Source of the DNA: Bolinopsis microptera
Taxonomy: Eukaryota > Ctenophora > Tentaculata > Lobata > Bolinopsidae
DNA length: 64,000 bases
Assembly (NCBI RefSeq): GCF_026151205.1
Contig: NC_087079.1
Location: 434,001-498,000 of the forward strand
Reading direction: 5' to 3'
Shown: piece by piece, positions 19,302 through 43,670 of the stretch
Layout: the number at the start of each line of letters is the position of its first letter
Numbering within the stretch: the stretch's first letter is position 1
Notes under the pieces: generated by a model
The model's database searches: none
What the model saw: the letters and a program-made list of their open reading frames with translations, nothing else
What the model was told of the DNA's origin: nothing
Program-made: the position numbers and the translations under genes

Positions 19302-22300
19302 TCAGTTGGTTAAAACCAATGAGCTGTCAGACATGGGCCGAACCTTAACGTCCCTGGTGGAAACGTCAGTTAATTCCCGAGCTACCCCCTCACTCTCAGT
19401 TTGTTCTCTACTCTCAGTATGTGCGGGGTGTGTACCACCCTTCCCACTATCCACCTCCCTTACGTCATCATCACTACCAAAGTTTAAGTTCTCTTCTAGA
19501 GAAGATGTCTGTTGACGATCCTGCCCTAGAGAAGATGTCTGTTGACGATGTTGCATAACGGTGGCTATCCTCTCGTCCCCCTGCTGCACAATCTGGACCG
19601 GTTCGTCCTCAAAGTGAGGCCCCTCATCAGGCCCCTCATCCGGTGAGGGAGGGTTGTGAGAGGGGGGCTTGAGCGCGGAGGAGGGTGTCAGGTATTGGTT
19701 GCCTTCTGTTAGATTATTTGGGATGATTGTTTGCTGACCTCCCCCCCGTTTATGGGCGTGGCTCCTCCCTTGGTTTTCACCTGCAGTTACAAAACTTTTA
19801 TAATTATATGTCGACTCAACTCAATAACATACATGTATTAACTGATTTATCTCAATTCTTATTCAACCATTTAGGAGAAATAATAAAGTTTTTTAAATCA
19901 CATGGGAGGAAAAATAAAATGTTGGTTGTACTACTAGTTGAGTAACATGCAATATTAGAATGAAAACAACAATGTTTAGAAGGAGTACAGCCAGCTATAA
20001 TAATAAGCAATCATTCCTGAGGAGTCAAGTGAACTTCTGCGCACGTGCACTTCTGCACACGTACACTTCTGCGCACGTGCAGATTTGTTTTAAGCTTGCA
20101 ACCATGCCGAATATTTGACAGCTTCAGCAAAAATTCACCTCATAACTATGAAAATCTTCAGAGAAATTTAGATTTGATTATATTCATTTTGATGTACAGA
20201 TATAGGAAAGGACGATCAACAATAAAAAAGCAGATAACTGATCTAACGTCCTAATCAAAAAGATCTACTCTTATTTTTTCTTTTAAGATCACTCTGTACT
20301 TAGTAACTGATATATTTAATTGTCCAATCAGTATTAACAATAATCAGTATTAAAAATTACTTGAAAATTAAATTAAGAGGGAATTAAACATATAAGCAAT
20401 GATATCGTATAAATATTGTTTCTTTGAATACTGCTTGACATCTATAATGACTACTATAATGATCAATATTATATGCCAACTTACCAGTACCATAATAACG
20501 AGGGATACGGATTACAGCTGTGTACAAGATATTATCATTAGATAAAGGTCATGATTCTCTCTCCCTCCCTCTCCCTCTCTTATCTTACCTGATGATTATA
20601 TCAAACACCAAATAAGTTCAGGTAACACACACACAGTGCGCATCCTCTACTAACAGTATCTTGCAGCAAGCCCCACTACTAGCCTCACTGCTCTCAGCTG
20701 GTTAGTTACTGGTGTACAGTGTTTAGAGGATTGGAGAGAGAGAGAGAGAGAGAGAGAGAGAGAGAGAGAGAGAGAGAGAGAGAGAGAGAGAGAGAGAGAG
20801 AGAGAGAGAGAGAGAGAGAGAGAGAGAGAGAGAGAGAGAGAGAGAGAGAGAGAGAGAGAGAGAGAGAGAGAGAGAGAGAGAGAGAGAGAGAGAGAGAGAG
20901 AGAGAGAGAGAGAGAGAGAGAGAGAGAGAGAGAGAGAGAGAGAGAGAGAGAGAGAGAGAGAGAGAGAGAGAGAGAGAGAGAGAGAGAGAGAGAGAGAGAG
21001 AGAGAGAGAGAGAGAGAGAGAGAGAGAGAGAGAGAGAGAGAGAGAGAGAGAGAGAGAGAGAGAGAGAGAGAGAGAGAGAGAGAGAGAGAGAGAGAGAGAG
21101 AGAGAGAGAGAGAGAGAGAGAGAGAGAGAGAGAGAGAGAGAGAGAGAGAGAGAGAGGAGAGAGAGAGAGAGAGAGAGAGAGAGAGAGAGAGAGAGAGAGA
21201 GAGAGAGAGAGAGAGAGAGAGAGAGAGAGAGAGAGAGAGAGAGAGAGAGAGAGAGAGAGAGAGAGAGAGAGAGAGAGAGAGAGAGAGAGAGAGAGAGAGA
21301 GAGAGAGAGAGAGAGAGAGAGAGAGAGAGAGAGAGAGAGAGAGAGAGAGAGAGAGAGGAGAGAGAGAGAGAGAGAGAGAGAGAGAGAGAGAGAGAGAGAG
21401 AGAGAGAGAGAGAGAGAGAGAGAGAGAGAGAGAGAGAGAGAGCTATAGGAAACGCGGTGGGAGCGCGTGTACAATGTGCACGTGCACTTTACTGTATGTG
21501 CACGTGCACTTTACTGTATGTGCACGTGTGCTCCAAATATTCCCACCTATATGGTGATATATTTGTTTTCTGAACACGGTCCCTACTGGTGTAGTAACAG
21601 TAGTATAACGGTGTGTAGGTATATTATAAGAGTTAATGAAACATATGGGAGATGGTAAGATTATACAGCAGGAGTGGGGGAGACTTGAAATCACTGAGAA
21701 TAGAGATGTCAGCAGACAGCAACATGACATTCATTCTGCCCAAAACAAATACAACCTGTACATTGTGATGTTTAACAAATACACAGGATGAGCAGATAAG
21801 ATAAGTATTATGAAGTATTTGTAGACCACAAATATGTGTTAGACTCATAGCTTTCTGAAGAACAATGATCTTATGTTGAGGGAAATAGTTACCAATAGTT
21901 ACCAATAGTTACCAATAGTTACCAATAGTTACCAATAGTTACCAATAGTTACCAATAGTTACCAATAGTTACCAATAGTTACCAATAGTTACCAATAGTT
22001 ACCAATAGTTACCAATAGTTACCAATAGTATGGTAAGTAATGAAAGAAATTCAAGATTAAGATAGAGGGAACAACTAAAATGCACATTATGCGTGAGTTA
22101 TTTTATATTCTGCCTCGCTCTATAGGGGGAGCTGTATTACATCTCCTGCTCTGTGTATAATGAAGCAGGGTAACGATAACCATGGTAAGTGGTAACCATG
22201 GTAACGATACATTTATGACAGGGGTAGAGCTGCTATTTGCATAGAGACACCTGAAAAACATTAATCTCACGTGTTCCTTGGTATTATGATAAGATTCAGT

Positions 22301-43670: not shown

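Follow-up and report, generated by a model that had tools for sequence, protein, structure and literature searches.

What protein, if any, is encoded by the long exon chain on the minus strand at 19302-43670 of this Bolinopsis microptera locus? The window that we analyzed, i.e., the whole 64-kb stretch of DNA in which the chain lies, is located at C8:434001-498000 of the assembly and has a GC content of 40.1%. Our answer, which we favor with modest confidence, is that the chain is a single-copy B. microptera gene coding for a type I single-pass membrane protein with two Ig-like regions, a Cys-rich stalk, a helix, and a disordered tail of ~180 residues.

As a basis for this reading, we rebuilt the 11-exon chain and obtained exactly the reading frame claimed in the initial annotation, with all exons in phase: 1494 nt, corresponding to 498 codons including a single terminal stop. 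All 10 exon junctions were GT..AG, and the intron phases were 1, 1, 1, 0, 2, 1, 1, 1, 0, and 1. We also conducted an exon-chain search by dynamic programming which was not given the earlier exons and which used approximate splice-site tables together with codon counts taken from three further frames of the window. At an intron penalty of 8, the score of the chain was 97.7, compared to 31.4 for the plus strand and a maximum of 28.5 in 40 dinucleotide shuffles (the shuffles were built from the 16784 of 24601 bases left after masking of tandem repeats, and were hence shorter than the real stretch). With a penalty of 6 the corresponding values were 124.6, 62.0, and 56.5, with more spurious small pieces and the end of exon 8 placed elsewhere. 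At penalty 8 the search returned 6 of the 11 exons exactly (exons 5, 6, 7, 9, 10, and 11) and exons 3, 4, and 8 with the same donor and a different start; exons 1 and 2 were missed, and three extra pieces of intron 10, one of them retroelement-like, were threaded in. Quantification of codon composition against open non-coding stretches placed exon 1 at the 63.9 percentile and the other ten exons at 84.1-99.4. These observations confirm that the exon chain looks real and beats chance; the support for coding is good for exons 3-11 and weaker for exons 1 and 2.

Exon 1 (43625-43670; donor 4.0 bits) carries the ATG and a signal-peptide-like stretch, and exon 2 (43331-43459; codon percentile 84.6, with a weak donor of -0.6 bits) carries the first half of Ig-like region 1. 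The second half of that region lies in exon 3 (42802-42906), whose start may be placed in phase at 42906, 42936, or 42999, or at 42955 with another exon-2 donor. Ig-like region 2 is distributed over exon 4 (42497-42612; first part), exon 5 (42255-42328; middle part, phase 0 to 2), and exon 6 (41922-42064; last part). Two cysteine-rich modules with six cysteines each follow, module 1 in exon 7 (41584-41703) and module 2 in exon 8 (40737-40874), both phase 1-1. For exon 8, a start at 40874 (0.6 bits) is more likely than the start at 40871 given earlier (-5.3 bits); 40889 is no splice site, the acceptor there being at 40886. Exon 9 (33841-33959) contains the transmembrane helix and a juxtamembrane stretch, exon 10 (32601-32628) is a 28-nt microexon leading from phase 0 to phase 1, and exon 11 (19302-19780) contains a disordered-looking, mildly acidic tail and the stop. 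When candidates were enumerated, exon 5 (42328-42255) and exon 10 (32628-32601) were each the top candidate of their interval, exon 10 with a splice score of 14.4 bits vs 7.7 for the next candidate. A hydrophobic alternative, a second helix exon at 40476-40320, was rejected as not coding (codon composition at the 14.7 percentile). The modules Ig1, Ig2, Cys1, and Cys2 are each bounded by phase-1 introns at both ends. Searching the 64-kb window for paralogous exons returned only self matches as strong ones, and the gene is single-copy in the assembly as far as our piecewise genome searches reach.

The introns of 6.8 and 12.8 kb, rich in tandem repeats, raise the possibility of two transcription units, in which 43670-40737 would encode an Ig/Cys-rich protein, either secreted or a short membrane protein, and exons 9-11 (helix, microexon, and tail) would belong elsewhere; moreover, the chain search favored inserting other open stretches within the 12.8-kb intron. 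However, the phases fit at all three junctions concerned, the splice sites of the microexon are the best among the enumerated candidates, and the helix exon and the tail exon are both coding in composition (98.3 and 99.4 percentile, respectively). We therefore regard two units as unlikely, and describe below the product of a single gene in which the joining across both introns is predicted.

Repeats are conspicuous in the introns of the gene, which contain a 355-copy GA run (20734-21442), a 40-bp unit repeated 44 times (22932-24670), a 24-bp unit repeated 48 times (30581-31734), and a 3-kb degenerate GAG-rich array (35929-38913). An open stretch at 29722-30328 on the minus strand, found by the chain search inside intron 10 and not counted as belonging to the gene, gave no Pfam match over cut-off and presumably resembles ORF1 of a non-LTR retroelement. 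We likewise take the reverse transcriptase-like frames at 46201-47281 (-), 53987-55261 (-), and 55512-57176 (+) to be non-LTR retroelement-like pieces around the gene. Its neighbors in the window include a protein kinase at 11909-10911 (-; Pfam E 7.7e-48), a TB2/DP1/HVA22 gene at 5425-6075 (+; E 2.9e-17), a ferroportin-like exon at 8865-9173 (+; E 2.3e-9), and what we assume to be a C2H2 zinc-finger array at 50081-52183 (+). In a frame at 61683-61258 (-), EFRGKR units recur with dibasic sites between them; the frame had no Pfam match above cut-off, and we presume that it resembles a neuropeptide precursor.

Next, we examined the two regions that had been called Ig-like in the initial annotation. 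Pfam gave no match for the spliced protein or any region of it, and the window is not among the at least 145 I-set matches listed genome-wide (150 of 592 candidates scored). When compared with Ig exons of the same genome, region 2 (exons 4-6) scored 24.3 bits on a 26-row profile of Ig exons from tandem arrays, aligning over profile columns 7-88, and none of 2954 shuffles scored as high (maximum 9.5); this profile was arrived at through one of the weak matches of region 2 itself, and the shuffles take no account of that choice. Exon 6 alone reached 12.6 bits (0 of 2983 shuffles as high) and exon 4 alone 4.0 bits (15 of 2574). Region 2 without exon 5 scored 14.3 bits; since exon 5 thus adds ten bits, the splice model is also supported. 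In hhalign, region 2 matched the array-Ig profile with a probability of 50.6, and 0 of 30 shuffles were as high. Against a profile built from 20 I-set exons, region 2 did no better than chance (1.6 bits, with 16.8% of shuffles as high; 7 of 30 in hhalign).

A genome search with region 2 hit its own exons three times and gave four other matches, all weak (E 0.48-6.4). These four lie in frames read as Ig domains: two belong to the C5 array, one is next to an array on C9, and one is inside a listed I-set match on C3. Two of the listed Pfam I-set matches that pass the cut-off are on exons of this C5 array. As a control, a hand-scrambled query gave one weak match that had an internal stop and was not at a listed I-set place. 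Region 2 contains the F-strand cysteine; the first cysteine of the array family aligns with a tryptophan of region 2, other cysteines being upstream, and we are unsure whether the standard Ig disulfide would be present. Based on sequence-profile similarity, region 2 appears to belong to the immunoglobulin superfamily.

For region 1 (exons 2-3) the result was marginal. Depending on the splice variant it scored 3.2-6.6 bits on the 20 same-genome I-set exons (shuffle fraction 0.008-0.034), which is slightly above shuffles and is a likeness of the gene to the I-set Ig domain (Pfam PF07679), the regions of the gene being below any Pfam reporting level. In hhalign against the I-set profile 0 of 30 shuffles were as high, but the probability was 6-7. 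On the array-Ig profile region 1 gave nothing by either profile scoring or hhalign, and its genome search returned the self match only. A combined profile, in which 2 of 26 array rows were on the wrong strand, gave 4.6-6.8 bits for Ig1 (shuffle fraction 0.013-0.038) and 9.3 bits for Ig2 (0.0017); the 20 I-set exons, scored on the array profile with 2 of 26 rows on the wrong strand, ranged from -0.9 to 21.9 bits. Thus, of the two Ig-like regions, the second stands, with homology to the array-Ig exons above shuffles, and the first is possible as an Ig-like region and doubtful. An internal duplication relating Ig1 to Ig2 was rejected, since their similarity was not above shuffles (p 0.30-0.41). 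Three sub-cut-off Pfam candidates, Ig_3 (E 0.11), pAdhesive_11 (E 0.047), and DUF5780 (E 0.074), appeared on a mis-spliced region 2 and were gone for the whole protein and for the properly joined region. Solved structures gave 0 matches with a mis-spliced query, and another search gave one match at E 2.1 to a chain named mL97.

The tandem Ig-exon arrays themselves are very large and lie at C5:15.992-16.047 Mb, C4:3.526-3.552 Mb, C7:10.777-10.787 Mb, C9:10.552-10.562 Mb, C9:3.666-3.679 Mb, and C1:1.164-1.175 Mb (150 of 922 candidates scored). The C5 array has more than 50 mutually diverged rows, the C4 array has runs of equal-scoring copies at ~950-bp spacing, and the C7 array is built of a two-exon, phase 1-1 unit of ~951 bp. 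Such arrays could be giant Ig proteins or banks of alternative exons. Besides the alignment of region 2 to the profile of these C5, C4, C7, C9, and C1 exons, the gene resembles the C7 array in that most of the Ig exons read there start and end at phase-1 introns, as the modules of the gene do. Unlike the array exons, in which one exon is one Ig domain present in many copies, the gene has a single Ig2 that is split over three exons and sits beside Cys-rich modules and a helix.

We then considered the stalk. Exons 7 and 8 had been annotated as two ShKT domains, which would give an Ig-Ig-ShKT-ShKT receptor with a stalk of two ShK-type domains. Disulfides in ShK domains pair as 1-6, 2-4, and 3-5. 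Like the ShK/ShKT domain (PF01549), each exon has six cysteines with similar spacing. Both match a loose ShK-like cysteine pattern that was devised with the two exons already in view; it was matched by only 0.052% (exon 7) and 0.032% (exon 8) of composition-keeping shuffles and by 43 of 59 same-genome ShK domains. Exon 7 also shares the C-x3-C-x2-C end found in 59 of 59 of these domains; exon 8, unlike all 59, ends in C-x2-C-x2-C. Two further features of the same-genome members, a C-x-D start (51 of 59) and an M-x3-C-x3-C-x2-C end (48 of 59), are in neither exon.

Profile comparisons pointed the other way. On a ShK profile made from 59 distinct domains out of 60 fetched places, from 76 listed, exon 7 scored -1.2 bits and exon 8 -0.5 bits, whereas the members of the profile score at least 29.2 bits; 36.5% and 25.9% of shuffles, respectively, were as high, or 61% and 22.9% with the cysteines held in place. 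On a half-model profile, 29 held-out members scored at least 20.0 bits vs -3.1 for exon 7 and 2.0 for exon 8. In hhalign against ShK, 7 of 30 shuffles of exon 7 and 6 of 30 of exon 8 were as high. The sole profile result in favor came from exon 8 scored without composition correction, which stood at the 3.9% level of shuffles (9.9% with cysteines held). Pfam reported no ShK in exons 7 and 8, and although the genome is rich in ShK domains, with at least 76 matches from 150 of 235 candidates scored, none of those listed was in the window. With exons 7 and 8 at shuffle level on the same-genome profile, Pfam, and hhalign, they appear to be Cys-rich modules that are not recognizably ShK, and we consider a stalk of two ShK-type domains rather improbable.

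Other assignments of the Cys-rich modules were tried. Tsg_N for exon 7 (15.9 bits, E 0.016; cut-off 25) and stn_TNFRSF12A for exon 8 (12.3 bits, E 0.23; cut-off 24.9) were both below cut-off, and neither was listed when the two exons were joined; when exon 7 was shuffled nine times with its cysteines fixed, no shuffle hit Tsg_N. A duplication relating exon 7 to exon 8 was rejected (p 0.16). The genome search with exon 7 returned that exon alone, and the one with exon 8 returned, besides the exon itself, a single weak match (E 1.1) whose Cys-rich frame was read as EGF-like; relatives of exon 8 in viral contigs were looked for and none was confirmed. In PubMed Central we found no paper joining a ShKT domain, MMP23, and immunoglobulin.

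The remaining parts of the protein largely agreed with the initial annotation. Hydropathy alone gave two stretches above 1.6, at about residues 1-25 and 292-322. The N-terminal stretch was hydrophobic and signal-like, as had been proposed for the start, and the membrane helix that had been claimed was found as one strong helix (Kyte-Doolittle maximum 3.04). The predicted ectodomain of 282 residues contains 18 cysteines and lacks N-glycosylation sequons. The 181-residue tail, which had been described as acidic and disordered, is indeed acidic, but mildly so (29 D/E and 19 K/R; pI 5.2). It contains one YLTP and one PPSP, and scanning it for ITIM, ITSM, half-ITAM, YxxPhi, NPxY, PPxY, acidic dileucine, and C-terminal PDZ patterns revealed none of them. 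A genome search with the helix and tail returned the gene itself and three weak matches (E 0.12-0.74). TipE, a sub-cut-off Pfam match on the tail (E 0.014), was not listed for the whole protein.

This predicted sequence is best read as a single-pass protein of Ig type, a receptor or an adhesion protein, whose Cys-rich stalk is unclassified. The mechanism that we infer, from membrane topology and stalk to adaptor docking, would involve insertion as a type I protein, directed by the signal peptide and held by the single helix. The two disulfide-rich modules would form a stiff stalk holding the Ig regions off the membrane, so that these outermost regions could engage a partner, either in the matrix or on another cell, in an adhesion or recognition role. 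The tail may dock adaptor proteins via short linear motifs, for signaling or anchoring. Restriction to the lineage would complete this picture. A published study reports that a ctenophore has hundreds of genes in which I-set or V-set domains occur (PMC11797021), so an Ig receptor here would be expected; in the same study, the domains depicted for SRCR proteins include Ig and ShKT.

Hydractinia Alr proteins are type I, with an Ig-like ectodomain and a long tail. A self/non-self recognition receptor with a role comparable to theirs, as the initial annotation had hinted by analogy, would share with the Alr proteins the general architecture alone (an Ig-type ectodomain, one helix, and a long tail, compared by description), but we deem it highly improbable, since the source is a ctenophore, in another phylum than Hydractinia, which leaves the analogy without phylogenetic footing and probably misplaced, and since the gene is single-copy as far as the piecewise genome searches reach and its tail has no ITIM pattern.

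The receptor or adhesion protein favored here is probably one more ordinary lineage-specific receptor. Correcting the ShKT label and the placing beside Hydractinia matters, as both would have misdirected follow-up. Work on surface receptors of this sort can start from the present gene model, in which one Ig domain is derived, another is doubtful, and the Cys-rich modules are unclassified. A bolder proposal, which we hold to be distinctly unlikely, is that exons 7 and 8 found a new ctenophore-restricted juxtamembrane Cys-rich domain, that the Ig domain has an origin in common with the tandem arrays, and that the receptor acts in cell recognition. If true, this would be a cell recognition receptor with a novel Cys-rich domain in what is possibly the earliest-branching animal lineage.
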